Below are positions 19,897 through 40,854 of a stretch of DNA of 42,780 bases, piece by piece. Made by a program: the position numbers and the translations under genes. A model generated the notes under the pieces. It worked only from the letters and a program-made list of their open reading frames with translations. It did not search any database and had not been told where the DNA came from. How positions within the stretch are numbered: position 1 is the first letter of the stretch; each line of letters opens with the position of its first letter. Source of the stretch: Synergistaceae bacterium (GTDB taxonomy: Bacteria > Synergistota > Synergistia > Synergistales > Aminobacteriaceae); assembly GCA_017540085.1 (NCBI GenBank), contig JAFYBQ010000036.1, positions 1-42,780 of the forward strand, in the 5' to 3' direction.

Positions 19897-21570
19897 ATGT
19901 TCTCCGACAAATCAGACGGGACTTTCTTCACGGGCTACGTGAAATCTGGCGCACTCGTAAACAGAAAGTTTCTTGAATTTCTTATTCCCACGTTCTTAAT
20001 GTCAATGTCAGCACAGCTAGGAGTCGTCATGGACGGCGTAATAGTCAGCTACCTTATCAGCGCAGTGGCTATGGCCAGTGTAGAAGCGTCAATGCCATTG
20101 ACTCAAACCGCCGCGGCCCTGTCTGTAATGATTTCGGTCGGGGCTGTCGGGCATATCACAACAGCATTAGGACTCGGCGAAAAGGAAAAGGCTAACCGCA
20201 TATTCAGCACAGTGTTCTCTTCGTCGTTAGGAATCGGCATATTGCTGACGGCCTTTCTTTTTACGTTCACTGATGAGCTGTCAGAATTCATATCTCCTGC
20301 TAAATCTATGACAGATAACTGTGAAGATTATATTGAAGTTTTATTGTTCCGTTTTCCGTTCAGCGTTTCATTAATGGTTATGTGTGATATTGTCCGCTCC
20401 GATGGCATGGCTAAACTTGCAAGCTACTCAGTTATGATTCAGCAGTGTTCAAATATCATCATGGATTTCATATTCATAAAATTTTTCGGACTCGGTCTTG
20501 GAGGTGCCGCGCTCGCTACTGTACTTAGTGATGTTGCCGGAATCGTTTTCCTTCTCCGGGTATACAGCCGCTCAAAGGAACGTACACTCAGATTCATTAA
20601 TCCCCTGTCAGAAGGAATCATGAGATTCATATCGCGAACGTTCGAGATATGCCGCACAGGTCTTCCCGCTACATTCGGCATGATATGCATTGCTGTGAAA
20701 GTATGGTGCATATACAAGATTTTAGGGTCAACAGGCGGAGTCGGGGCGACTGAGATTTACGCGGCCTGTATGCTTTATCTCTCTCTGCTCTCGATGTTCG
20801 TTTTAGGTACGAATGACTCCGCGTATCCTATAGTGGGAGTGCTTTACGGAGAGAAAGATTACCGCGGTATTCGTATGTTCATGAGGTATGTATTCAGGTT
20901 CACGATGATGATTGCCGGTTTCTTTTTGCTTCTGTCGTTCCTGTTCCCGCGTGAGTTTCTGACTCTGTTTGGGCTTTCTGATGAGCTGGCCTTATCCGGC
21001 GCGGCGGCGGTTCGGCTTTTCTCCGTGAGTCTTGCTGGCGTGGCGATGACATTCATTATGATTTACTACTACACGGCAGTGAATCAGAACACAGCGGGCA
21101 ATATATTATCGCTGACGGAGGGATTTTTTGCGGTGATTCCGGCGGCGTGGGTGTTCTCGCGATTATTCGGGCAGATTGGCGTGTGGGCCGCGCTTGTTTT
21201 TGCGGAAATTGCCGGGTTCGCTGCGATATGGATTTACGTCAAGTACAAATGCTCTCATTCTGACGGAAAATTATCGGACTTCTATCTCATCGAGAAAAAC
21301 GGAAGCGAGCTTCTTTATGATGTCTCACTCAAAGCTACGGAGTCTGACGCGTCGAAATTGTCGCAGGAGTCAATTAGTGTTCTTGAGTCTCGCGGAATGG
21401 ATCACAGCACGGCCATGAAGGTCGGAATCGCTCTTGAGGAAATCACCGCGAACATGGCACTCATTAACGCAAAGCCGGTTGATTTTGACGTGAGAATTTT
21501 GGACAGCGGCAGGGATATTCTTCTTGCATTACGCGACAACGGAATAGAATTTAACCCGATAGAATATTAG
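19897..21570 (+). CDS. MATE-family efflux protein fused to a RsbW-like ATPase domain
   Basis: Cation-coupled multidrug exporter, the probable exporter of the peptide made by the next genes. Residues about 20-450 carry twelve hydrophobic segments with the MATE pattern of two similar halves (KFLEFLIPTFLMSMSAQLG; FEICRTGLPATFGMI). The C-terminal part after about residue 460 is a HATPase_c_2 domain, as in anti-sigma kinases: N box GIALEEITANM and G1 box LRDNGIEFNP. A TAG stops the frame at 21568 within this domain, yet 46 further codons fit its missing end. The ribosome binding site is weak (AGAG, about ten bases before the ATG). The gene begins right after the structured RNA and leads the NRPS operon. 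Confidence 0.88.
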   Translation: MFSDKSDGTFFTGYVKSGALVNRKFLEFLIPTFLMSMSAQLGVVMDGVIVSYLISAVAMASVEASMPLTQTAAALSVMISVGAVGHITTALGLGEKEKANRIFSTVFSSSLGIGILLTAFLFTFTDELSEFISPAKSMTDNCEDYIEVLLFRFPFSVSLMVMCDIVRSDGMAKLASYSVMIQQCSNIIMDFIFIKFFGLGLGGAALATVLSDVAGIVFLLRVYSRSKERTLRFINPLSEGIMRFISRTFEICRTGLPATFGMICIAVKVWCIYKILGSTGGVGATEIYAACMLYLSLLSMFVLGTNDSAYPIVGVLYGEKDYRGIRMFMRYVFRFTMMIAGFFLLLSFLFPREFLTLFGLSDELALSGAAAVRLFSVSLAGVAMTFIMIYYYTAVNQNTAGNILSLTEGFFAVIPAAWVFSRLFGQIGVWAALVFAEIAGFAAIWIYVKYKCSHSDGKLSDFYLIEKNGSELLYDVSLKATESDASKLSQESISVLESRGMDHSTAMKVGIALEEITANMALINAKPVDFDVRILDSGRDILLALRDNGIEFNPIEY

Positions 21571-27700: not shown

Positions 27701-30700
27701 CGTCAATATCAAGCATACGGCTTGCGACTCAGATCTACAAGAAATACGGCGTTCAGTTGCAGGTGAGAAAGCTCGTCTCAGAAGGAAGCATACAGAGCAT
27801 AGAGAATGAAATTCTGCGTAAAGTTTTTGCTGAGACTCACGAGGAAAAATCAGAGCCGGAAAAATCACATGAGCCGTCAAAAAATTCATGCCCCCTCACG
27901 TTTGAACAGCAGGGTGTTTACGCGGAGTGCATGATTGACCCGTCATCGACAGTCTACAACACTCCTTTTTCCGTGAAGATTCCCGATGGCATAACAGCAG
28001 GACAGCTCAAAGAGGCGTTGCGGGAAGTCATCGAGGCGCACCCGTATATACTTTGCAGGTTCACGGCAAATGACAGAAACGAGATAATACAGGAGGCAAT
28101 TCCCGATTTCACGCTCGACATTCCCGAAAAAGAAATGACTCCTGAGGATTACGAGTCCTACTGCAAAGAAGGCTTTGTGCGTCCGTTCAATCTCGCTGAA
28201 GGGCCGCTTGTGCGTTTCGAGATCGTGAAGTCTGACGGGCTATATTTGCTGATGGATATGCACCATCTTGTTACTGACGGTGCGTCTGTTGATATTTTCC
28301 TTCAGCAGTTGTGCGCGAAACTTGACGGCCATGACATAGAGCATGAAGAATACAGCTACTACGATTACGCCGCCGATGAGAGAATGACGGACGGAGCAGA
28401 CGAATTTTTTGCCGGAAGAATGGCACTCTCAGACGAAGCGACTCAGATTATCCCGGATGTTTATGCGGAAAATCTCACGCACTCGGAAGACTCCGTGAGC
28501 GTCAAGACAGACATCAAAGCCGTGAAAGAATTTGCCCTCAAGCACGGCGCAACACCCGCTGAAATTTACCTTGCAGCCGGATATATTACGTTCTCGCGTT
28601 TCGTGTGTGATGATACTGTCTCAATAATGACAATCTCAAACGGTCGCGGAAACATGAAGATTGCCGGCACTCTCGGAATGTTCGTTAATTCACTGCCTCT
28701 CGTTGAAACTGTTGACAATTCCGAAAATGTTGCGGACTTTATCAAGCGTTCAGCAAAAAATTTCAGCGATACACTTCTTCATGAAAATTACCCGTTTGCG
28801 CGCGCTGCCTCAAAGTTCGATTTCCATCCGAGTATCTCATACGCATACCAGATAGGAGTCCTCAGCGAGTACAGGACAAAATACGGAGCATTAACCGCAG
28901 AAGAGCTTACATCGGACAAGGCAAAAATCCCCGTCGCGGTCTTCATCACAGGAACAGAGGACGAAGCCGAAATCAAGATAAGCTACGATACAGCCATGTA
29001 CAGCCGTGAAATCATGCAGGGCCTGACAGAGTGCTACGAAAACGCCGTGCAGGGACTCCTGACTCATGACAAAATTTCTGACATCAGCATAACGGACTCG
29101 CACCAGTGGGAAATTCTCGACTCGTACAATCCTGAATGGGATCTGAATTATGACATGAACGACACGCCCGTGTCAGCCTTCAGGAGGAACGCAAAGAACA
29201 ATCCCGACAAAGTTGCGGCGGTATTCAGGGATAAGCAGTACACATACAGGGAGCTTGACAAGCTGACAGACAGACTCGCGGCGAAAATCTACAGCAGAAT
29301 GAAAGCCATCACAGGCAGGGAAAATTTATCAGAAGAAGTAATCTCAATCATCATCCCCCGAAATGAAAACGTATTCATTCTCCCTCTTGCTGTCGTGAAA
29401 GCCGGGTGCGCTTATGAGCCGTTAGATCCTTCATACCCGCAGGAGAGGCTCAATTTCATGGTGAAAGATTCCGGCGCAAGACTCCTAATCGCTGATGACT
29501 CTTTGCGCTCACTCGTGAATGAATACGCGGGCGATGTGCTGACTGTCAGCGAGTTATACAGCATGAATGACTCGAACGACATACCGCCGTGTCCGTCCCC
29601 TGATGATTTATTCGTCATGCTCTACACATCTGGGTCAACCGGGACTCCGAAAGGCTGTCAGATCGAACACCGCAATGTTGTCGCGCTCGCTCACGGAATC
29701 GAATTGGCCGGATTCTACCGTGAAGACGACAGAATCGCCGACTATGCGTCATTCGGTTTTGACGTGAACATGGCCGATGTCTTCTGCACGCTCATTAACG
29801 GCGGGACGGTTTATATCATTCCTGAGGATATACGCATGAATCTTGACTCACTCGCAGAATATTTCGATGACGCGGGAATTACGGCGTTACTTCTCACGAC
29901 TCAGGTCGGCGTTCAGTTCATGCAGAATTACCCGCACTGCAAGACGCTGCGACTCCTCTTAATCGCCGGGGAAAAACTCCCTGCTGTTGACCCTTCCGGC
30001 CTGAGCTACACAATCGCTAACGGCTACGGCCCTACGGAGAACTGTTACGGCGTTAGTATCTTCCCGATTCGCAAATGGGAGAAGAATATCCCAATCGGCA
30101 AGCCATTCCCGACAATTCACGGCTACATTCTCGACAAGACAGGACACAGACTCCCGGCAGGCGCGGCGGGTGAATACTGCCTCTCAGGGCCGCAGGTCAG
30201 CAGAGGTTATCTCAACCGCCCGGACAAAACAGCAGAGGCTTACGAGCAATGCCCCTATAACAATTTCCGCATGTATCACACCGGGGATATTGTGCGTTAT
30301 CGTCAGGACGGAAATGTTGAGTTTGTCGGGCGCAAGGACGGACAAGTGAAGATTCGCGGCTTCAGGATTGAGACGAAAGAAATCGAGGCGGTGATTCGGA
30401 ATTTCGGCGGCGTGAAGGACGCTACTGTTCAGGCTTACGATTACGAATCAGGCGGTAAGTATCTTGCGGCGTTCGTTGTGAGTGATGAGGCAGTCGACAC
30501 TGAGAAATTGCGCGACTACATCAAGAGCCAGAAGCCCGCGTACATGGTGCCTGCGGTGATAATGCAGATCGACAAAGTTCCGCTGACGGTGAATCAGAAA
30601 GTCGACAGGAAAGCGTTACCCAAGCCGGAATTACAGAGGCGTGAATATGTTGCTCCTGCCGGAAAAACTGAGGAAGATTTCTGCGGGATATTCGGCGAAA

Positions 30701-32130
30701 TTCTAGGGCTTGAGAGAGTCGGCGCGGAAGATGATTTCTTTGAGCTTGGCGGAAGCTCCGTTATCGCAATGAAGGTTGTTATCGCCGCGGGCAAAAAGGG
30801 ATATTCCATCGTCTACAATGACGTATTCACGTACACGACTCCGAGACTCCTCGCTGAGTTTGTTACGGGGTCAGAGAGTCAGACGCAAGAAATTTCAGCG
30901 GACATAGCACCGTCAGCAGGGAAAATTACGGAGATAGACTCGGAAGGCTACGACTATTCCGCAATAAATGCACTTCTCGCGAAAAACACGATGGAGTCAT
31001 TCAGGAATGGCGAGCGTCAGAGATTGGGCGATGTACTTTTAGCGGGTGCGACGGGGTATCTTGGGATTCACGTGCTTGAAGAGTTGCTCACGTCAACAGA
31101 GTCAAAAGTTTTCTGCCTCATCAGACCAAAAGAAGGCAGCAGCGGTGAAAAACGTCTGAGAAATCTTCTTGAGTATTACTTTGGCCATGACCACGCGGAA
31201 TATTTTGCCTCTCGTATAACAGTCATTGAAGGCGACGCGACAGACCCGGACTCGCTGAGAGATTTTACGCCCGACTCAAACATGACGGTGATAAACTGCG
31301 CGGCCTCCGTAAAGCATTTCGCAAAAGGCAACGAGATCGAACGCACTAACGTTGACTCAGTGAAGAATCTTGTCGCATGGTGTGAGGAAAATGATTCGCG
31401 TCTCGTCCACATCTCAACAGGCAGCATTATCGGCGGACGGAAAAACGGACTTCCCCCTGAAGGCTACCGCTTTGATGAGCATGTACTCTTTGCGGGTCAG
31501 ACAGTGAAGCATAATCAGTACATTCACTCGAAATTCATGGCCGAGAGATTCATTTACGAGGAAATTTTGACGCATGGACTGAACGCAAAAGTATTCAGAG
31601 TCGGAGACCTTGCACCGCGTTTGTCGGACGGAAAATTTCAGGTCAACTTCAGAACGAACAACATCATGAACACGCTTAGAGCCTATAAGATTCTCGGAGT
31701 GGTGAATTTCGGCGCGCTCACAAATGAGATAGAGTTCTCGCCGATTGACTCCCTCGCAAAAGCTGTTATCGCACTCGCAGGAACTCCGAAAGAATGTATA
31801 TGCTTCATGCCGATTAACCCGCACCGGGCGTTAATGCAGGATGTTTTCACGGAGATTCGCGGACTCGGCTATGAGATTCGCGCGGTTGAAGATGACGAAA
31901 TGAAACAGGCACTTGACGCGGCATTGTCAGACAGCAGGAACAGCGCGGTTTCTCCGTTAGTCGCATACGCAGACAACAGCGGAGTAAAAGAACTCGGACT
32001 TGATGACATTGATACGGGCTTCACATCGCAGGTGCTGTACCGTTTGGGCTTCTCATGGCCGGAAACAGGCGCGGAATACATCAGGCAGTTTATCAGGAAA
32101 CTTGACGGGCTTTCATTTTTTGACGAGTAA
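21715..32130 (+). CDS. Trimodular nonribosomal peptide synthetase with terminal reductase, (C-A-T)x3-Re
   Basis: Giant assembly-line enzyme of 3,471 residues. Module 1: C with HHAAFDG at 134; A with YTSGSTGRPKG near 586; T with Ser 982 in IGINSLAMM. Module 2: C with NHAVFDG at 1156 (first His replaced by Asn, second and catalytic His kept); A with YTSGSTGVPKG near 1608; T with Ser 1997. Module 3: C with HHLVTDG at 2183; A with YTSGSTGTPKG near 2637; T with LGGSS at 3011-3015. The end is a thioester reductase with NADPH motif AGATGYLG near 3112 and catalytic Thr 3235, Tyr 3269 and Lys 3273 (YIHSK). No epimerase or methyltransferase domain is seen. The terminal reductase implies release of an aldehyde or alcohol. 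An N-terminal C domain suggests that an acyl or aminoacyl starter is supplied in trans. The ribosome binding site is weak (AAAGG), so coupling to the MATE gene is likely. Confidence 0.95.
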   Translation: METKIRKVPLSQTQLGMYFESVRMGGCAYNRHYLYTLDKSLDMERLARAIEKTVQAHPYMEVRISQDDNSGAITQSIPESESQYQQTVMKMSESQWQERLKTLTSEPLTLNGGRLFRFDLAETECGKYMLRTTHHAAFDGISYNVIMNDIAAAYNGENLTQETYNALDVAEEESKLREGEEYQRAKEWYVKNFSGLDVVSSPLAGNSGNNSGECFVYTFDLSEADMKNFCREKHISTSALTSAAFAILTGIYTNQQESLFSTIYHGRSKNAAHIIGMFVKTLPVYAKWDNDTRTGDFLAGLSEQIQGARDNDIFSFAEVNTICPLNEAPLFAWHGSVRTHVEVCGMPASEDLLDKTTDDTALSVELMSVASGMSLRVEYDSGKYTREFIETLAETYGNILRQLMTKEFVREIYPCPEGTKAGNFNDTDYPVELCAVHVLFEEQARKTPDTVAFVADGERLTYRELNGRANRLAHSLIERGIQPEAIVGLLLPRTIAVPVCEYGVWKAGGAFLPMSAEYPDERIDVCLRDAGCKFCITTEAVKNQRKNLFTSDKPYTVLTVEELCGNDNAENPGLTVSPSSLAYVIYTSGSTGRPKGVMLEHGNLCNFVNANEKNMETREFVGGGKTALALAAVSFDVSMMEIHISLTHGMTCVMATEEEIHNPLLLAKLIKNEAVDIVCFTPSYLANLLQFPEAEEALHRVKMYDMGAEAFPPSLYGKVRSASPDAVIVNGYGPTEATISCVARILSGGEKITIGRPSANVKAWVMDKFGHELPAGAVGELVIGGLGVGRGYVNLPDKTSAVFFTHRGVRAYRTGDVVRLLRDSDGFTADYTDYIGRGDRQVKIRGLRIELDEVESVIREFPGVSDVSVVAFDGDSGKFMAAYVVSSGKIDIPALNDFIRDRKPPYMIPSATIQIDAIPLTPSRKVDRKALPKPDISALTSGAEIIQPRTDSEKRVCAVISGITGGNNFGVNMTLEEIGINSLAMMRLAVTLSREFSHPMNFADLQQNNTPEKLAAFLEGGTNDEDFPVLDDSPLTKIQEGIFFETQSHPGTTIYNIATLLELAGTPDVSRIRDAVISAVKAHPYLLTRFFLNDNGEIRQKRPEDFAFDVEESRFRNLDELRKNLLRPYDLLNDRLIRANIARTDDGKIYVYFDMNHAVFDGMSQQIFMRDIERAYNGETLEPEKFSGWEAAILEERLRSSPQYQKAKDYYTGLFRDCEPDCLPLPDMQEDAEGSLSMIIPGHADAESIRKFCDDNGISENDFYTAAFGYVIAGFSGREDSIFTTNNSGRSDSRFMDSVSMFVRTYPVICKTAKGTVLDYIRETKRQLTDSLSYGAYSFAEISHDLGIPADILFAFQGAVSGKIESFCGCPCVEVDVSLDEAKAGIEMSVFPENGGLSYHFTCRKNLYTDDFIRNFAGIYDNVLTEFTRKVNLNDAEFLDAETESLLDKANDTATDYDKSDIVTQFRGTAEKFPDNIAVVYREKRYTYRETDEITERIAAYLKGRGIGAEDVVSVLIPRCEYMVIASLGVLKTCAAYQPLDPSYPPERLEFMITDASAKLLIADRSLIKDCVPNYHGDILFTDEIPALPPAQKLTETPSPSSLFIMLYTSGSTGVPKGVMLEHGNLACFTAWYSKTTHLTEKSRVAAYASYGFDACMMDIYPALTSGAAVHILDEEIRLDFAAIQKYFDDAGITHCFMTTQVGRQFAEYYTGQSLKYLSVGGERLAPIFPENKSFALLNGYGPTECTIFTTIFPVKKLYRRIPIGAALDNVKLYVVDKNGRRLPPYMPGELWVSGHQVGRGYFNRPEKNAESFTANPFTNEEGCTRIYRTGDIVRNVYDGGKMVIDFVGRNDAQVKIRGFRIELTEVEAVIRDFPGVKDVTVQAFDSDSGEKYLAAYVVSEGKIDVNALNEFIGRNKPPYMIPAVTMQIDAIPLKQNQKVNRKALPKPEITATRKESESVSAPLNLLEKDIKAIIAEIIGTDSFSITDALGNFGLTSISSIRLATQIYKKYGVQLQVRKLVSEGSIQSIENEILRKVFAETHEEKSEPEKSHEPSKNSCPLTFEQQGVYAECMIDPSSTVYNTPFSVKIPDGITAGQLKEALREVIEAHPYILCRFTANDRNEIIQEAIPDFTLDIPEKEMTPEDYESYCKEGFVRPFNLAEGPLVRFEIVKSDGLYLLMDMHHLVTDGASVDIFLQQLCAKLDGHDIEHEEYSYYDYAADERMTDGADEFFAGRMALSDEATQIIPDVYAENLTHSEDSVSVKTDIKAVKEFALKHGATPAEIYLAAGYITFSRFVCDDTVSIMTISNGRGNMKIAGTLGMFVNSLPLVETVDNSENVADFIKRSAKNFSDTLLHENYPFARAASKFDFHPSISYAYQIGVLSEYRTKYGALTAEELTSDKAKIPVAVFITGTEDEAEIKISYDTAMYSREIMQGLTECYENAVQGLLTHDKISDISITDSHQWEILDSYNPEWDLNYDMNDTPVSAFRRNAKNNPDKVAAVFRDKQYTYRELDKLTDRLAAKIYSRMKAITGRENLSEEVISIIIPRNENVFILPLAVVKAGCAYEPLDPSYPQERLNFMVKDSGARLLIADDSLRSLVNEYAGDVLTVSELYSMNDSNDIPPCPSPDDLFVMLYTSGSTGTPKGCQIEHRNVVALAHGIELAGFYREDDRIADYASFGFDVNMADVFCTLINGGTVYIIPEDIRMNLDSLAEYFDDAGITALLLTTQVGVQFMQNYPHCKTLRLLLIAGEKLPAVDPSGLSYTIANGYGPTENCYGVSIFPIRKWEKNIPIGKPFPTIHGYILDKTGHRLPAGAAGEYCLSGPQVSRGYLNRPDKTAEAYEQCPYNNFRMYHTGDIVRYRQDGNVEFVGRKDGQVKIRGFRIETKEIEAVIRNFGGVKDATVQAYDYESGGKYLAAFVVSDEAVDTEKLRDYIKSQKPAYMVPAVIMQIDKVPLTVNQKVDRKALPKPELQRREYVAPAGKTEEDFCGIFGEILGLERVGAEDDFFELGGSSVIAMKVVIAAGKKGYSIVYNDVFTYTTPRLLAEFVTGSESQTQEISADIAPSAGKITEIDSEGYDYSAINALLAKNTMESFRNGERQRLGDVLLAGATGYLGIHVLEELLTSTESKVFCLIRPKEGSSGEKRLRNLLEYYFGHDHAEYFASRITVIEGDATDPDSLRDFTPDSNMTVINCAASVKHFAKGNEIERTNVDSVKNLVAWCEENDSRLVHISTGSIIGGRKNGLPPEGYRFDEHVLFAGQTVKHNQYIHSKFMAERFIYEEILTHGLNAKVFRVGDLAPRLSDGKFQVNFRTNNIMNTLRAYKILGVVNFGALTNEIEFSPIDSLAKAVIALAGTPKECICFMPINPHRALMQDVFTEIRGLGYEIRAVEDDEMKQALDAALSDSRNSAVSPLVAYADNSGVKELGLDDIDTGFTSQVLYRLGFSWPETGAEYIRQFIRKLDGLSFFDE

Positions 32131-32139
32131 AATATCATC

Positions 32140-35100
32140 ATGACACTAATTCACGAAATCGTATCACAATACGCCGTGAACAATCCCAAAAAGAAGGCTG
32201 CTGAGGACTCATTCGGCAGTCTCTCTTACAGGGAGCTTGACGGCAAAAGCAATTCAGGCGCAAAAATACTTTATGGACTCGGAGTCAGCGCGGGGGATTC
32301 TATCGGCGTTTATGTTCCGTATGTGAAAGACGTAATCACCGGGGCTTTGTCCGTGTGGAAGGCTGGCGGGGTCTATATCCCTATGGATGACGCATATCCC
32401 GCTGAGAGACTCGAATACATCCTCAGAGACTCAAACGCAAAAGCTATCCTCACATGCCGGACTCTTTGGGAGAAAAAGCCGCTCAGTTTTCCGGCGGAAA
32501 ATGTGATATTCCTCGATGACATCACAGACATCACATCATCATTCACCCCTTGCGCGGACATCACCGAAAAATCCCCGGCCATGATTCTCTACACTTCCGG
32601 CACAACTGGCAGGCCTAAAGGAGTCCTTCACAGGCACGAATTTTTGACTCACATTGTCGATTGGATGAACGTAACGGAAGATTTCTGCATGACAAAAGAC
32701 TCACGAGTCGGACTCATTTCGCGGTTTACGTTTGTTGCGACTGTAACATTCATGTTCGGCGCGTTGCTGAAGGGAGGAACGTTATATTTTGCCCCCGAAA
32801 ACGCAAGGAATGATATTGAGCAGCTCTATAAATTTCTCGCGGACAAAAAGATTTCTCACATATTCATTGCTTCAGGGCTTGCGGCAATTCTCGCTGAGGA
32901 TTACGACATTTCCGGCGTGAATGTTTTTGCGGCGGGTGAAAAGCTCCCTAACTTCCGGGCGCATTCAGACTCCGTATATCTCCGAAATATTTACGGCTCA
33001 ACAGAAATCGGCGTTGTTACGTCAGCGGAAATTCACGGCCAAGAGAATCCCATCACAATCGGCAAGCCCGGCCCCGGCACAAAAGCAATGCTCATTGATG
33101 AAAATCTCAGTCCGTCAAAACCTGATGAAGCTGGCGAACTCCTCATAGCGAATGAATACATGTCGAGGCAATATCTCAATCTCCCGGAGCAGACAGCGGA
33201 GAAATGGATTCAGATTGACGGCCTCACCTGGTACAGGACAGGCGACAGGGCTACAATGACTCATGAAGGGGATATATGCATTCTCGGACGAACCGACAAC
33301 ATGATAAAGCTGCGGGGATTCAGAATCGAAACGGGCGAGGTTGAGTCGCAAGTGTCAAAAGCTGTAACAGGAATCAGGCGCGATGACGTGAAAAACATTG
33401 TCGTGTGTCTTCGAACCGTAAGCAGGAATGATTATCTTGTCTGCTACTACGAGTCGGGAAATGACCTTGCCCCTGACGAAATCAGCGCGGTGAAAAATGA
33501 GTCCGCAAAATATCTCGCTGACTACATGATTCCAGATATATTCATGAGAGTCGCCCAAATGCCCCGAAACCTTAACGGCAAAATCATACGCAGAGACCTT
33601 CCGCAGCCAAAATCGCACACGCACGAAATCACAGCTCTTGACAGTGAGACTCTTGCGCGAGTCGTGTGGGCTGTTTCTGACGTTCTCGGAATCTCATCGG
33701 CTGAACCTGAAGACACATTCACGGAGCTTGGCGGGTCATCAATCACGGCCATGAAGCTGGCGGCGTTGTTGCGTCCGCAGGGCATAAAGATTACGACAGC
33801 GCAAATACTGAAGCTGAATGTATTGCGGAAAATTGCTGACGCGGCTGAAGTCGATTACGCTAAATTGTGGTCAGAGGAAGAATACAGCGCGGTTATTGCC
33901 GATTTTGCCTCACGCGGTGAACACATACAGAAAGTGCTTCCCATTACGGCGGAGCAAGATGATATGCTGTTCGACTATATACTTTCCCCGGACAGAAACA
34001 GCTTCAGATCTGTTTACATGCTTCAGGTTGACAGCGTTATAACGGAGGAAAATTTGCGGCTCGCTCTTGATACTGTCTCACAAGAAAATGAAGAGTTGCG
34101 CTCATCTATCGTATTTCACCGCACGCGAGTTATACAGCAGGTGATAACAGACAGGAAGATTCCCGCAAAATTCGTGAACATAAATAATCTTGATGACAAG
34201 AATCTCGAAGTCGCATGGAATATATTTCAAAGTCCCATTGATTTGCAGAGAGACACATTAATGCGTGTCGTTTGCGGAGAGTTTTTCGGGAAAAGTTTCC
34301 TGTACATAATGACGAGTCATATCAGCTTCACGAAAGCGCAGGCGCGGAAATATTTTGCCCGTATAATGTCGGTGCTTGAGGAAAAATATCCGAGCGACAA
34401 AGCGATTCATGACTGGCGGGAAATTTTTGACGGGACTCTAACGGAAGATTTGACGGAAAAACCGAAACCCCGCGGCGAGTCAAAGCTGAGACAACTTGAC
34501 CGCCCAAGAAGCAATATCCCCCCGGAAATCTGCGTATACTCCGAGAACAGCGGCCCTAAAATGACGTTCATTCACACAGGCAACACAGGAAGCGAGGCAT
34601 ATTACAGGCTGGCCGACAGAATCAGGGATAAGATTTCTTTCTCGGTGATTGAGCCGTTCAACCTGTGGCACATTGAGCAGGCGACATACGGTATACCGAA
34701 CATCGCAAAAAGGTATGTAGAGATTCTCAAGCGTCATCAGCCCGAAGGCCCGTATATTCTCGGCGGCTGGTGCTACGGCGGAATGATAGCCCACGAAATG
34801 GCATGTCAGCTTCAGGACGCAGGCGAGGAAGTGAAATATCTGTTCATGCTGGACTCACACGCTACGACAGATCCGGCATTAAGGCAAATGGCTAAAAGCA
34901 TGTATGAAGCGTCGGGGCGGGAATATTTCGAGACAAGCCCGCTGTTTTCTGACCTGCGGGAATCAGGAATGCTTGAAGCTATGATAATCAACTCGGAGCA
35001 TGTATATCACGACATGGCCACTCATATGCCGTCATTCTTCAGCGGCTCTGTAACATACTTCAAGCCCGATGTTGTTCCGGCAGAATCTTCCGGGAACGCT

Positions 35101-35271
35101 CGTAAATATTGGGAGAAAATGATGGAGTTCCCCGCCGGTAATTACAGGCCATTCTGCAACAAAGATTTATTCCGAATCATTCACACACCGCACGAGCATG
35201 ATTTGATGATGGATGATCCCTCGCTTGAGATTATTGTCCCGGAAATTTACAGGGCATTGGGCATAAAGTGA
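32140..35271 (+). CDS. NRPS-like protein A-T-partial C-thioesterase
   Basis: 1,043 residues. The A domain (about 1-505) has YTSGTTGRPKG near 151, IYGSTE, the YRTGD hinge, and the A10 Lys in NGKIIRRDLP. The region that normally carries the alpha-amino-binding Asp reads RFTFVATVTF (195-204), so an alpha-amino acid is an unlikely substrate. The T domain has LGGSS at 530-534. A shortened C-like N-lobe (about 610-770) has SHISFTK at 726 in place of HHxxxDG and no C-lobe. The thioesterase (about 800-1043) has GGWCYGG, with Cys 878 as nucleophile instead of Ser, Asp 905 (MLDSHA) and His 1020 (HEHDLM). It may load the starter unit for the large synthetase. The thioesterase may edit, hydrolyse or cyclise. 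The gene begins 9 bases after the NRPS stop. Confidence 0.92.
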   Translation: MTLIHEIVSQYAVNNPKKKAAEDSFGSLSYRELDGKSNSGAKILYGLGVSAGDSIGVYVPYVKDVITGALSVWKAGGVYIPMDDAYPAERLEYILRDSNAKAILTCRTLWEKKPLSFPAENVIFLDDITDITSSFTPCADITEKSPAMILYTSGTTGRPKGVLHRHEFLTHIVDWMNVTEDFCMTKDSRVGLISRFTFVATVTFMFGALLKGGTLYFAPENARNDIEQLYKFLADKKISHIFIASGLAAILAEDYDISGVNVFAAGEKLPNFRAHSDSVYLRNIYGSTEIGVVTSAEIHGQENPITIGKPGPGTKAMLIDENLSPSKPDEAGELLIANEYMSRQYLNLPEQTAEKWIQIDGLTWYRTGDRATMTHEGDICILGRTDNMIKLRGFRIETGEVESQVSKAVTGIRRDDVKNIVVCLRTVSRNDYLVCYYESGNDLAPDEISAVKNESAKYLADYMIPDIFMRVAQMPRNLNGKIIRRDLPQPKSHTHEITALDSETLARVVWAVSDVLGISSAEPEDTFTELGGSSITAMKLAALLRPQGIKITTAQILKLNVLRKIADAAEVDYAKLWSEEEYSAVIADFASRGEHIQKVLPITAEQDDMLFDYILSPDRNSFRSVYMLQVDSVITEENLRLALDTVSQENEELRSSIVFHRTRVIQQVITDRKIPAKFVNINNLDDKNLEVAWNIFQSPIDLQRDTLMRVVCGEFFGKSFLYIMTSHISFTKAQARKYFARIMSVLEEKYPSDKAIHDWREIFDGTLTEDLTEKPKPRGESKLRQLDRPRSNIPPEICVYSENSGPKMTFIHTGNTGSEAYYRLADRIRDKISFSVIEPFNLWHIEQATYGIPNIAKRYVEILKRHQPEGPYILGGWCYGGMIAHEMACQLQDAGEEVKYLFMLDSHATTDPALRQMAKSMYEASGREYFETSPLFSDLRESGMLEAMIINSEHVYHDMATHMPSFFSGSVTYFKPDVVPAESSGNARKYWEKMMEFPAGNYRPFCNKDLFRIIHTPHEHDLMMDDPSLEIIVPEIYRALGIK

Positions 35272-35849
35272 TAAGGCTGACTCTTCTCGACATTCGCGGA
35301 CTTAGGCCAAAAGCTGAAGAGTTACTGCGGGGACTGCCTGAAGAGTTGCGGAAAAAGGCATTGCGTTACAGAAAAGAAGATGACCAACTACGCAGCATAG
35401 GGTCATCTTTTTTGTTGCTGAAAGCCGCAAAGGGTCAAGAGATTCATTACAGCCTTGAAGGAAAGCCGTTTGTTGACGGAGAAAAATACTTCAGCATTTC
35501 ACACAGCGGGGATTATGTCGTTCTCGCTGAAGCTGATTCGCCTATTGGTGTTGACGTTGAGAGAGTCGCGGACATTGGGATTAATGATGACTTGAAGAAT
35601 GTCGCATTGACTGAGAGGGAAAAACTTTGGGTGAAAGATTCACTGCTGAGATTCTATGTTGTGTGGACGAGAAAAGAGAGCCTCATAAAATGCGAGGGAC
35701 ACGGCTTCATTTCAGAGCCTTGCGAAATTGACGCACTTCCTGAGAATGATTTTGATGACCTTGTGAAGTATGAGGGAAAATTTTACCGCATTGAAAGTTT
35801 TATGTTTGACGGGCATATAATATCACTTGCCATAGAGACTGTACAATGA
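35268..35849 (+). CDS. 4'-phosphopantetheinyl transferase, Sfp type
   Basis: Attaches the phosphopantetheine arm to the carrier domains of the two synthetases. Family motifs are FSISHSGDYVVLA, IGVDVERV with the Mg-binding Asp and Glu, and WTRKESLIKCEGHGF. Its 193 residues are slightly short for the Sfp class. The start GTG overlaps the stop of the previous gene (GTGA), so it is the last gene of the operon. The final codons (TVQ and the stop) lie inside an IS256-like terminal sequence starting at 35837. The natural C-terminus was therefore probably replaced by insertion of a mobile element, without loss of the catalytic part. Confidence 0.93.
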   Translation: MIRLTLLDIRGLRPKAEELLRGLPEELRKKALRYRKEDDQLRSIGSSFLLLKAAKGQEIHYSLEGKPFVDGEKYFSISHSGDYVVLAEADSPIGVDVERVADIGINDDLKNVALTEREKLWVKDSLLRFYVVWTRKESLIKCEGHGFISEPCEIDALPENDFDDLVKYEGKFYRIESFMFDGHIISLAIETVQ

Positions 35850-37012: not shown

Positions 37013-37044
37013 CTATGCAAAATCCCAAGTCAGGAGGCAGTTTA

Positions 37045-38805
37045 ATGGCAGAAAAATTCTACACGTCAGAGGTCAACAAGCAGATACTAATTCAGCTCCT
37101 TAAAGCCCACAACATTCACAAAGTCATAGCCAGTCCCGGCGCAACAAACATAACATTTATAGGCAGCATACAGAATGATCCGTGGTTCGAGATATATTCG
37201 AGCGTTGACGAGAGATCAGCGGCGTACATGGCCTGCGGAATGGCGGCTGAGTCCGGGGAGCCTGTAGTCCTGACATGCACGGGTGCTACAGCCTCGCGGA
37301 ACTATATCCCCGGACTGACTGAGGCATTTTACCGCAAACTTCCTGTACTGGCCGTAACAGCGAGCCAGCATTTTGGCCGGGCAGGGCAGTACATCCCGCA
37401 GATGTTAGACCGCTCGCGCCCGCCGATAGACTGTGTGAAAATGAATGTCAACATACCGATGATACACACGGACGAAGACAGGCAGCTATATACGGTCAAG
37501 ATGAACGATGCAATATTAGAGCTTAGGCACAGCGGAGGCGGCCCGGTTCTGATAAATATTGTTACGGAATACAGCCCGGATTTTTCCGTTCACGAGCTTC
37601 CCCCGGTCAAAGTAATCAACAGGATAGAGCCTGAAGACGAAATGCCCCCGATAAAAGCCGGGACTGTCGGAATATTCATCGGCGCACATCCGGCCATGTC
37701 AGAGAGACTCACAGGGCTTATTGACTCGTTCTGCGAGAAATATAACGGTGCTGTACTCTGTTCCCATATCAGCAACTACAGGGGGAAATATGAAATTCAC
37801 CCGAATCTTGTCCCGCTGTCGCCGCGTCAGGGAATGGACTTGATGATTTATATCGGCACTACTGAGGGAGCGTATACAAGTCTGAGGCCGAGTGAAGTAT
37901 GGCAGGTTAATCCTGACGGTGTTGTGAGGGATAGATTCGGGAAACTGCGCTATGTGTTTCAGATGAGCGATGAAGAATTTTTCTCTCGGTACGTAAATAT
38001 GCCTACCCGTGGGGGGGGGGTCAATTGCAGTTATTATACGGCGTGGCGTAATGATTATGATTATGTCCGCGCAAGAGTCCCGGAATTGCCCTTCTCAAAT
38101 GCTTGGATAGCACAGAACACGATCGACAAACTTCCCGCAAATTCGGTACTCCACTTAGGAGTCAGCAATACCCGCCGTTGCTGGAATATGTTTGAGCTTC
38201 CCAAAACTGTAAACGGTTACTGTAATACTGGCTGTTGCGGCATTGACGGCTGTATTTCCTCTCTGATTGGCGCGTCTCTTGCGTCTCCCGGAAAATTATT
38301 TTTCGGGGTAACAGGAGATTTGACATTCTTCTACGACATGAACTCAATCGGGAATCGTCATGTCGGCAAAAATCTGCGTATCATGATCATCAATAACGGT
38401 ATTGGTGCTGAGTTCAAGCTATACACGCACCCGGCCGCAAGTTTCGGCGATGACGCTGACAGGTTCATGGCCGCACGGGGTCATTTCGGGCAGCAGTCGC
38501 GGGACTTAGTGAGGCACTACGCGCAGGATTTAGGGTTTGAGTACATGACAGCCGCGAACAAGGAAGAGTATCTAGCGAACGTGATACGCTTCACGACACC
38601 TGAGACGCTGGACAGGCCGATGCTTTTCGAGGTCTTCACGAATCCCAAAGACGAGAGCGATGCACTATACGCAATCAACAATATTGACGTTACGGACATT
38701 CTTCCGCCGTCAATGAGGGCAAAGAATCTCGCAAAACAGACAGTAAAAAGCGTACTGGGTTCTGACGGAGTGAAAACGCTCAAAAAAATTATAGGGAGGC
38801 AGTAA
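37045..38805 (+). CDS. Thiamine diphosphate-dependent enzyme, MenD/acetolactate-synthase-like
   Basis: Cytoplasmic decarboxylase or ligase of the thiamine diphosphate superfamily, 586 residues. The N-terminal pyrimidine-binding domain has ASPGATNITF and the catalytic Glu in SSVDERSAAYMACGMA. The C-terminal cofactor domain has GVTGDLTFFYDMNSIGNR, where Leu replaces the third-position Gly of the usual GDG and the downstream Asn is kept. Relatives occur in capsule and lipopolysaccharide loci as MenD-like proteins, making branched or keto sugars or phosphonate precursors. The start at 37045 follows AGGAGG. A run of ten G at 38011 lies in the coding frame (residues PTRGGGVN), a hot spot for frame slippage. 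It is followed after 2 bases by an SDR gene. Confidence 0.82.
   Translation: MAEKFYTSEVNKQILIQLLKAHNIHKVIASPGATNITFIGSIQNDPWFEIYSSVDERSAAYMACGMAAESGEPVVLTCTGATASRNYIPGLTEAFYRKLPVLAVTASQHFGRAGQYIPQMLDRSRPPIDCVKMNVNIPMIHTDEDRQLYTVKMNDAILELRHSGGGPVLINIVTEYSPDFSVHELPPVKVINRIEPEDEMPPIKAGTVGIFIGAHPAMSERLTGLIDSFCEKYNGAVLCSHISNYRGKYEIHPNLVPLSPRQGMDLMIYIGTTEGAYTSLRPSEVWQVNPDGVVRDRFGKLRYVFQMSDEEFFSRYVNMPTRGGGVNCSYYTAWRNDYDYVRARVPELPFSNAWIAQNTIDKLPANSVLHLGVSNTRRCWNMFELPKTVNGYCNTGCCGIDGCISSLIGASLASPGKLFFGVTGDLTFFYDMNSIGNRHVGKNLRIMIINNGIGAEFKLYTHPAASFGDDADRFMAARGHFGQQSRDLVRHYAQDLGFEYMTAANKEEYLANVIRFTTPETLDRPMLFEVFTNPKDESDALYAINNIDVTDILPPSMRAKNLAKQTVKSVLGSDGVKTLKKIIGRQ
38011..38020 (+). repeat. Poly-G tract of ten inside the MenD-like coding sequence
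   Basis: Ten consecutive G encode Gly-Gly-Gly and the first base of Val about 55% into the gene. With ten G the frame is intact; nine or eleven would put the rest out of frame. Such tracts are classical contingency loci in host-associated bacteria. Confidence 0.8.
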
Positions 38806-38807
38806 CG

Positions 38808-39893
38808 GTGAAAGTGTTAGTTACAGGCGGCACCGGGGCAATGGGCGGCTATCTTGTGAAGATACTGTCAGAGGCCGGGAATACAGTAGACGTTACAACG
38901 AGGCAGAATCGCGAATCCTCAGCGGAAAATGTGAGATACATACAGGGGGACGCGCATAATATTGACTTCATCAGGAAGACTCTTGAGGCCGGGAGCTATG
39001 ACGCTATTGTAGACTTCATGAGCTACACGACAGAAGAATTTAGGAAACGCGCTGAGATTATGACGGGTGGGACGGGGCATTATATGTTTCTCAGCTCGGC
39101 GAGGGTGTACGCAAAATCAGATGTCCCGATAAAAGAGACTTCACCGCGTCTTCTTGACGTATGCACGGACAAAGAATATCTCGCAACAGACGAGTACGCG
39201 CTCGCGAAGGCAAGGGAAGAAAATATACTGCTTGAAGGGAAAGCGGGCAACTTCACCATAATACGCCCTACTATCACGTACAGCACTGAAAGATTACAGC
39301 TCGGAGTCTACGAGAAGGAATCGTGGCTTTACCGGGCAATACACGGAAGGCCGGTTGTATTCTCGCGGGACATTGCCGGGAAATATACTACTATGACATA
39401 TGGCCATGACGTTGCCGGAGCGATTGCGGGTCTTGCGGGCAGGCGTGAGGCTTTCGGGCAGGCATATCATATTACGGCTGATGACTCGATGAAGTGGAGC
39501 GGCATTGCGGAAATCTACAGGGAAGTTTTTGCTGACGTTACCGGGCGTGAAATGGAGATTGTGTACATTGACCGGGCATTTGATGACACACCGCAGCTGA
39601 GATACAGCAGGCTTTATGACAGGAGATTTGACATCAGCAAAATCAAAGAGGCCGTGAAAAGTTTTTCCCCAGTTCCAATCCGCGAGGGACTCACGAAATG
39701 CCTGCGTGAATTTCTGACTGGCAGGCAGGTTTTCAGGGGAATTAATGCCGCGAATGAGGCAAGAATGGACAGGATTGCAGGAAGTTTCACGCCGCTGAAG
39801 GAATTTCCGGCATTCAGGCAGAAGGCAAAATATTTCCTTTACCGTTACGCGCCCAAACTGGCCGGAGTAATCAGCCGTATTCACTCGTCATAG
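38808..39893 (+). CDS. NAD-dependent epimerase/dehydratase (extended SDR)
   Basis: Nucleotide-sugar-type short-chain dehydrogenase, 361 residues. The N-terminal NAD motif is VTGGTGAMGGYL, followed by LSSARVY with the active-site Ser and DEYALAKAREE with the Tyr-xxx-Lys pair. A C-terminal substrate domain follows. The start is GTG at 38808 with GGGAGG about eight bases upstream. It is two bases from the MenD-like gene, so the two are co-translated and probably act in the same surface-sugar pathway. It overlaps the convergent CitG-like gene by 13 bases. The substrate is unknown. Confidence 0.85.
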   Translation: MKVLVTGGTGAMGGYLVKILSEAGNTVDVTTRQNRESSAENVRYIQGDAHNIDFIRKTLEAGSYDAIVDFMSYTTEEFRKRAEIMTGGTGHYMFLSSARVYAKSDVPIKETSPRLLDVCTDKEYLATDEYALAKAREENILLEGKAGNFTIIRPTITYSTERLQLGVYEKESWLYRAIHGRPVVFSRDIAGKYTTMTYGHDVAGAIAGLAGRREAFGQAYHITADDSMKWSGIAEIYREVFADVTGREMEIVYIDRAFDDTPQLRYSRLYDRRFDISKIKEAVKSFSPVPIREGLTKCLREFLTGRQVFRGINAANEARMDRIAGSFTPLKEFPAFRQKAKYFLYRYAPKLAGVISRIHSS

Positions 39894-40777
39894 CCTGAGC
39901 GCGTCAGCTTCATTTTCACCAGCTCAGGAATAAGCACAGCGCACGAAAGTATTACCCCGCTTCCATTGGGAGCAGCTCCCCTTGAGCGCAAAGCCCTGTC
40001 GAACTCCATCACAGCCGCTATGCCTTCAGGGGTGAGCATTCCGCCCGCGTCAAGCACTCTTTTTGCCTCGTCCTGTATCCGCATAAGCTCACTGATTCCC
40101 ATTCTCCCGGCTATTTCTGTGTCTTGGTTCTCCGCCATTATCGTTATAAGCGTGTGGGACAGCCTTTCGCGCAGGGATAAATTTCCGTGCATGGCCTCAA
40201 GTTTCCTGAGAGTCTCAACAGCTTTCAGCGTCTGAATATATCCGTTCTCAGCTTCTCCCCGGCAGCCTTCAAGACCGTATGACATGTACGCCTTTTCCCC
40301 CGGTGTCAGAACTTTCATGTTTCCCGTGTCAGTCAGAGGCCACAATTCCCGCGCCGTTATCCCCTGAGCGAACGCCGAGGCCGTGAGAGCCAATGCGCCC
40401 GGAGTCAGTATGCGTTTCTGCGCGATGAGTTTCCCAGCCGCCGCGCACAATAATCCCATGCAGAATATATGACCCTTCACGGCGAATTTTCCGCGAGTGG
40501 CAAGAAGTGAGTCATTGCTGCCGATTCTGCCCGGTGATTTCAGGATGGTATATGCCTCCGAGGGTCTGAGGGACTCTGTGTCGGCACCTGCTGAAGCAAG
40601 ATTTATGAAGCACTGAAACAATGACATTGCCGAGTCGACAAGGCCGGGGAAGTCTGAGCCGTCAAGCGCGTTATTGTCGAGCGGTGTAACAAGTCCCGGC
40701 TTGGGATATGCTGAGGCTGAAAGGATTATTGATTTCACGGCCAAACTTGCTATGTTGAATATGTACACTTCATTCAT
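39881..40777 (-). CDS. citG: CitG-like triphosphoribosyl-dephospho-CoA synthase family protein
   Basis: CitG/MdcB enzymes make the 2'-(5''-triphosphoribosyl)-3'-dephospho-CoA prosthetic group of citrate or malonate decarboxylase acyl carriers. The family pattern is visible in SAYPKPGLVTPLDNNALDGS near residue 23 and in SLLATRGKFAVKGHIFCMGL, where the typical NTHKG is changed to FAVKG. Another landmark is the Asp/Thr region TARELWPLTDTG. The start at 40777 has GGGAGG eight bases upstream; an earlier in-frame start at 40846 overlaps the promoter. No citrate lyase or malonate decarboxylase genes are near. The changed motif leaves the reaction uncertain. Confidence 0.72.
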   Translation of the reverse strand: MNEVYIFNIASLAVKSIILSASAYPKPGLVTPLDNNALDGSDFPGLVDSAMSLFQCFINLASAGADTESLRPSEAYTILKSPGRIGSNDSLLATRGKFAVKGHIFCMGLLCAAAGKLIAQKRILTPGALALTASAFAQGITARELWPLTDTGNMKVLTPGEKAYMSYGLEGCRGEAENGYIQTLKAVETLRKLEAMHGNLSLRERLSHTLITIMAENQDTEIAGRMGISELMRIQDEAKRVLDAGGMLTPEGIAAVMEFDRALRSRGAAPNGSGVILSCAVLIPELVKMKLTRSGYDE

Positions 40778-40808
40778 GATTGAGTCCTCCCTGCGTATTT
40801 TACACTCT

Positions 40809-40837
40809 GCTATATTTTCGGACACAAAAAGCGTCAA
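40809..40837 (-). promoter_or_regulatory. Promoter of the CitG-like gene
   Basis: On the minus strand TTGACG (40837-40832) and TATAGC (40814-40809) are 17 bases apart. Its -35 box forms an inverted repeat with that of the opposite promoter (CGTCAAG at 40832 and CTTGACG at 40854). Confidence 0.55.
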
Positions 40838-40854
40838 GCCCCGCAAAATTTCTC

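Follow-up and report, generated by a model that had tools for sequence, protein, structure and literature searches.

What does a thioesterase with a cysteine nucleophile do in an NRPS locus whose products already appear to be released by a reductase (R) domain? The question is raised by a DNA stretch of 42,780 nucleotides from a Synergistaceae genome (G000), hereafter called the window. In it, a protein of 1043 residues with the layout A-T-C'-TE, as deduced from Pfam matches and from reading the sequence, is encoded beside a larger partner NRPS that ends in an R domain (Table 1). The first-pass annotation of this DNA had suggested that the thioesterase might do something other than simple off-loading, an idea that is supported by the strict pairing with one terminal module described below.

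Table 1. Features of the A-T-C'-TE locus, with positions counted from the first letter of the window
Feature	Position	Strand	Basis or remark
MATE-family exporter, upstream of the NRPS	19897..21570	+	
Partner NRPS, C-A-T-C-A-T-C-A-T-R, 3471 aa	21715..32130	+	
Terminal C-A-T-R module of the partner	27880..32127	+	Orthologous in all carriers
A-T-C'-TE open reading frame, 1043 residues	32140..35271	+	Pfam; reading of the sequence
A domain of the A-T-C'-TE protein	32140..33624 (residues 1-495)	+	Pfam AMP-binding; pocket begins V-A
T (carrier) domain	33637..33849 (residues 500-570)	+	Pfam PP-binding; alignment; GGSS with the attachment serine
C', condensation N-lobe only	33922..34404 (approximately residues 595-755)	+	Pfam Condensation; structure match
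Thioesterase domain (Cys878/Asp905/His1020)	34525..35268 (residues 796-1043)	+	Pfam Thioesterase
Codon of the nucleophile Cys878	34771..34773	+	Reading of the sequence
4'-Phosphopantetheinyl transferase	35268..35849	+	Pfam ACPS; 4-base overlap with the end of the A-T-C'-TE gene

MATE genes adjoin the cassette not only in the window but also in genomes G914 and G467 and at a Prevotella paralogue, and in two Bacillota genomes it is adjoined by genes for SpoIIE-type phosphatases (L081:14602-16446 and L082:11227-12801), which are possibly regulatory. Downstream of the cassette in the window, positions 37015-39893 encode a ThDP-binding protein with a MenD-like N-terminal domain and an SDR-like protein, followed on the minus strand by a gene for a CitG/MdcB-like triphosphoribosyl-dephospho-CoA synthase (39881-40846). 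The ThDP-enzyme gene (37015-38805) and the SDR genes were considered as members of the cluster and set aside, as no counterparts of them were seen next to the cassette in L041, L043 or L044, where the comparison covered N-terminal sequences only.

The thioesterase and its relatives

Searches of whole genomes and of a species-level genome collection yielded at least 13 A-T-C'-TE proteins. With that of the window counted, five belong to the genus of the window (one being truncated where a contig ends), four to Prevotella, two to the family of a MAG named Eubacterium and two to the Oscillospiraceae. The carriers thus span three phyla (Synergistota, Bacteroidota and Bacillota) from gut and rumen; several are ruminant MAGs, and nearly all are metagenome bins, some of which are cut by contig ends. 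Plasmid records returned only distant NRPS matches, with less than 30% identity among the best matches listed, and a rumen gene-cluster survey made no mention of thioesterases or reductase domains.

The thioesterase domain matches Pfam PF00975 with 78.6 bits (cut-off, 26.4). It had initially been placed at positions 34741-35271, an interval that does lie within the domain and yet covers residues 868-1043 only, the domain beginning near residue 796 (position 34525). As the first-pass annotation had claimed, Cys878 in GGWCYGG (residues 875-881), Asp905 in MLDSHA (codon 34852-34854) and His1020 in PHEHD (codon 35197-35199) follow the canonical order and occupy the canonical places of a Ser/Cys-Asp-His triad. 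When 12 A-T-C'-TE proteins (including that of the window) were aligned with one C-A-T-C'-TE paralogue, Cys878 and Asp905 were invariant in 13 of 13 sequences and His1020 was kept in all 12 that reach that far; because the paralogue has KQEHD in place of PHEHD, His1020 is the sole invariant His of its motif. Every member that covers the nucleophile motif has GGWCYGG, and no close relative carries Ser instead. The paralogue, which also has GGWCYGG, belongs to Prevotella genome G389, where its gene is split over two contig ends (L067:6221-8938 and L063:8749-10566) that overlap in sequence and would join into one whole gene, followed by a MATE exporter gene.

Two AlphaFold models, with low to middling mean pLDDT values of 63 and 65, predicted an alpha/beta-hydrolase fold in which Cys878 lies at the nucleophile elbow, the strand that follows ends with Asp905, and His1020 is in the loop after the last strand. 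This loop was modeled at low confidence, and the triad was judged by topology rather than by distances; neither model separates Cys878 topologically from Asp905 and His1020. Such a separation, or relatives with Ser at this place and ordinary hydrolysis, had been named in the first-pass annotation as speaking against its reading. An intact triad is supported in this way, more by conservation than by model geometry. Moreover, the thioesterase is the best-conserved domain of the protein. Relatives outside the genus are 50 to 67% identical to the window's protein in the thioesterase, 36 to 54% in the A domain and 29 to 48% in C'; for the members from Prevotella and Eubacterium and the first Oscillospiraceae member, the corresponding values are 62 to 67%, 49 to 54% and 29 to 48%. 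Since the best-conserved domain also carries an invariant motif, the thioesterase does not appear to be a dead remnant. A Cys nucleophile was also present in 4 of approximately 18 more distant thioesterases sampled, so that the view that nearly all NRPS thioesterases have Ser at this place was somewhat overstated. One thioesterase gene, in genome G993 (L076:514-2370), has Ala at the nucleophile position (GGYAAGG).

The Cys nucleophile had first been likened to those of the obafluorin and sulfazecin thioesterases, ObiF and SulM, and this comparison was not supported. In ObiF and SulM, the catalytic Asp has been relocated to the loop that follows beta7, and at the beta6 position, where other thioesterases carry Asp, ObiF has Gly (PMC6668435, PMC11298585). 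In the A-T-C'-TE family, the Cys is present and the invariant Asp905 belongs to beta6, its place being the one seen in AB3403 and EntF, whereas the position following beta7 holds D, E, R or A in the alignment; because of this, the likeness to ObiF and SulM is one of the nucleophile alone. Closure of a beta-lactone or beta-lactam ring, as in those two enzymes, is therefore favored by nothing except the Cys and is extremely unlikely, given that the catalytic Asp is at another position, that no Asp is conserved after beta7 and that the loaded acid seems to be bound by a pocket without the alpha-amino contact (see below). Instead, AB3403 and NocB stood at or near the top of both the profile search and the structure comparison, AB3403 (PDB 4zxh) tying for the best structural match to the thioesterase (Z, 17.4; rmsd, 2.5; 157 residues). 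ObiF and SulM were absent among the best structure matches listed for either model, which is not evidence that they are excluded.

The C' and A domains

Between the carrier domain and the thioesterase lies C', which matches the Pfam Condensation profile at positions 2-122 of 456 only and, in the structure comparison, a condensation N-lobe over approximately 160 residues. At the place expected for HHxxxDG, the window's protein has SHISFTK, as had been pointed out before; the stretch is not special, in that it differs in almost every relative (SHISFTK, CYVSFNK, HNIAISQ, YSISVDE, HRIAFGE and others). An NRPS condensation domain would have both lobes and HHxxxDG, whereas only the N-lobe is found here and the motif is degenerate in every member. 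Truncation by an assembly error was ruled out, since the same C' occurs in every relative. These observations support the earlier description of C' as a truncated condensation domain; judging by its motif, it is catalytically dead, and it may serve as a noncatalytic spacer or docking piece.

The A domain pocket was read by eye from an alignment to the pocket positions of GrsA, including position 235. No Asp is found at position 235 in the window's pocket, in which Val is first in the code. The residue at code position 1 is Val in the window and in G010, G031, G390, G391, G467 and G392, Ile in G389 and G1060, and Ser in G914; Asp235 is thus missing in all relatives that cover the A domain, the other pocket residues are uncharged with the exception of the catalytic Lys, and the pocket varies between subclades. 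A domains for beta-amino acids carry a shifted Asp; this possibility was discarded, no such Asp being present in the alignment. Because Asp235 is lost and the pocket is uncharged, the likely substrate is an acid that has no alpha-amino group. An alpha-keto acid is the most probable candidate, an alpha-hydroxy acid or another acid lacking the amine being alternatives. The residue that the window has in place of Asp235, Val at code position 1, has been reported as a mark of alpha-keto-acid activators (PMC10316625). A search of the available literature for keto-acid code strings gave no match.

The A-T-TE layout, together with Val at code position 1, might suggest that the protein dimerizes alpha-keto acids in the way of the A-T-TE quinone and furanone synthetases, with the NRPS serving a separate pathway or a later step. 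We regard this as very unlikely, as C' has no counterpart in those synthetases and a self-contained dimerizing enzyme would not be expected to show the strict pairing with a C-A-T-R module that is described next.

The A-T-C'-TE protein is strictly paired with one terminal C-A-T-R module

The second release domain noted in the first-pass annotation is borne out: the R domain of the partner NRPS matches Pfam PF07993 with 111.7 bits (cut-off, 20.1) and, as read from the sequence, keeps GxxGxxG and YxxxK. In the same protein, the first C domain has an intact HHxxxDG, and every T domain is paired with its own A domain. When the C domains of the partner NRPSs were placed in a tree, the terminal ones formed one clade (support, 96/98), whereas the upstream C domains formed no matching clades, and the upstream modules vary freely. 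The terminal A domains are 65 to 97% identical to that of the window and share the pocket FDVNM[AS]D ... NGYGPTENC[YCA]G, in which Asp235 is present.

Both the thioesterase profile and the terminal A domain were scanned in 592 genomes (the Oscillospiraceae sample was scanned for the thioesterase only). A terminal A domain with at least 70% identity was found in 10 of the 592, and exactly these 10 carry an A-T-C'-TE protein, counting G023, in which the protein is cut by a contig end within C'; among approximately 100 genomes whose best terminal A match is 55% or less, none carries one. In view of shared descent and transfer, a formal probability for this pattern would have no meaning, but it does span three phyla. 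Identities of the thioesterase and of the R domain rise and fall with each other (r = 0.98 for 36 nonindependent pairs). In nine loci the two genes overlap or lie next to each other, and in G010 they lie on different contigs of one genome, which indicates that linkage is not required and fits action in trans. Together, these results show a strict pairing of the A-T-C'-TE protein with a single terminal C-A-T-R module, orthologous among carriers, and this is the main new result of the analysis. In G010 (L049:9198-12926 and L050:5793-13814), the A-T-C'-TE and transferase genes stand alone on their contig, beside apparent restriction-modification genes. The partner NRPS of G914 has an extra N-terminal A-T without Asp235 (L081:580-1100), with an apparent frameshift near base 980 that is either real or due to assembly.

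The pairing bears on three further explanations. Our first idea, a simple N-terminal acyl loader, lost ground once the C-domain tree showed the terminal module to be the conserved partner. In its fuller form, the A-T part would supply, in trans, an amine-free acyl group with which the first C domain of the NRPS would cap the N terminus, and the thioesterase would be an auxiliary. The NRPS does begin with a C domain that has its HHxxxDG and is in need of a donor, and an amine-free acid is normally an N-terminal cap in peptide synthesis; however, it is the last and not the first C domains that are orthologous among carriers, so that the pairing is at the wrong end, G914 carries the A-T-C'-TE protein despite its own (apparently frameshifted) N-terminal A-T, and the strong conservation of the thioesterase is left unexplained. 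We therefore consider a starter role to be quite unlikely.

Alternatively, the T domain might be the site where a building block is made, which the thioesterase would then set free as a monomer for the terminal A domain, following the logic of BarA/BarC and of novobiocin. There is precedent for such supply (PMC8748450, PMC7966384), and it is precisely the terminal A domain, with its unusual pocket, that the pairing involves. The substrate, however, apparently lacks the amine that a terminal A domain with Asp235 requires, and the two-gene cassette includes no conserved modifying enzyme; a supply of precursor is accordingly a rather improbable role.

Finally, the thioesterase might edit in cis, hydrolyzing a wrong or stalled acyl group from the adjacent T domain, like a type II thioesterase that has been fused with its client. 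A single protein does hold T, C' and TE, two release domains in a pathway make an editor natural, and LgnA both transfers and edits (PMC8748450). Against this, type II thioesterases are free-standing proteins, and the editors RifR and LgnA have their Asp after beta7, neither of which applies to the A-T-C'-TE protein; an invariant Cys, the highest conservation of any domain and a tie to one terminal module would also not be expected of an editor. On balance, editing appears unlikely.

Acyl transfer in trans and comparison with known systems

Tentatively, and with a probability of roughly 0.4, we favor the reading that the A-T-C'-TE protein is a trans-acting acyl-loading subunit whose Cys thioesterase hands an amine-free acyl group on to an intermediate of the terminal module or to its product. 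The A domain would activate the amine-free acid and load it onto the T domain, and the Cys thioesterase would take the acyl group from there by thioester exchange and pass it in trans to an acceptor from the terminal module, either the carrier-bound terminal residue or the released aldehyde or alcohol. The R domain would perform the actual chain release, with the thioesterase as an acyl transferase beside it rather than a second off-loading hydrolase. Action on the terminal residue or on the R-released product seems most likely because the pairing is with the terminal and not the first module, and the strictness of this pairing across three phyla points to a thioesterase that contributes or passes on a building block instead of simply cleaving a product. 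Transfer is favored over hydrolysis because three features coincide: the nucleophile is Cys, the acyl group would lack an amine and chain release has a domain of its own. In ObiF, a change of the Cys to Ser led mainly to hydrolysis (PMC6668435), which counts in favor of Cys thioesterases preferring nonhydrolytic transfer.

Several points weigh against acyl transfer. A textbook shuttle from T to T finds no empty acceptor T domain in the partner, and the A pocket, as described above, is not the same in all subclades. The Prevotella C-A-T-C'-TE paralogue is a one-module synthetase that ends in the same C'-TE, and plain release is possible there. The hydrolysis seen with Ser in place of Cys comes from one enzyme, ObiF, and by analogy need not apply here; likewise, the nearest solved relatives, AB3403 (with no known product) and NocB (an epimerase-hydrolase), would not by their example suggest acyl transfer. 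A more specific version, in which a Cys-bound keto-acyl group would be joined to the aldehyde or terminal residue of the R module to give an undescribed class of reactive peptide end groups common to the gut and rumen Synergistota, Bacteroidota and Bacillota, with C' as the docking element, is speculative and a good deal less probable than not.

The locus shows an NRPS logic divided between two proteins, in which a Cys thioesterase is combined by design with release through reduction. Over three phyla, the thioesterase subunit accompanies one terminal module, the other parts of the assembly line being exchanged, and this pairing yields a concrete prediction of the part of the product that the thioesterase touches. 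The expected products are peptides from gut and rumen, where reductively released peptides are often protease inhibitors. At approximately 115 kDa, the A-T-C'-TE protein is moreover a small, testable enzyme for the role of Cys versus Ser in thioesterases that do not form rings.

Among known systems, the C-A-T-C-A-T-R synthetases of gut bacteria have the same layout as the Prevotella partner and likewise release their products by R, but in the genomes sampled most of them end with another type of A domain and are not accompanied by an A-T-C'-TE protein. The A-T-TE quinone and furanone synthetases, likened here by description, share the domain order and the Val that is first in the code (PMC10316625); in these enzymes, the thioesterase makes C-C bonds, and there is neither a half C domain nor an obligate NRPS-R partner. 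ObiF and SulM, compared by their published descriptions, have the Cys nucleophile in common with the A-T-C'-TE protein and differ in the place of the Asp (after beta7 versus on beta6); their thioesterases are ring-forming terminal domains of a peptide-carrying module. AB3403 is closer in its active site, with a Cys nucleophile in GGWC[FY]GG and the Asp after beta6, but it is an ordinary C-A-T-TE module of Acinetobacter baumannii, without C' between T and TE, and its product is uncharacterized (PMC11298585). For the proposed function, the nearest parallel is offered by thioesterase-like proteins with an established role in shuttling acyl groups between carrier domains, namely LgnA (PMC8748450) and CysB, a homologue of SyrC/CmaE (PMC7966384). 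These are free-standing, LgnA having Ser and the type II Asp, and their acceptor T domains, unlike those of the partner NRPS, lack a working A domain; what they share with the activity proposed here is the use of a thioesterase-like fold to move an acyl group from one NRPS subunit to another.
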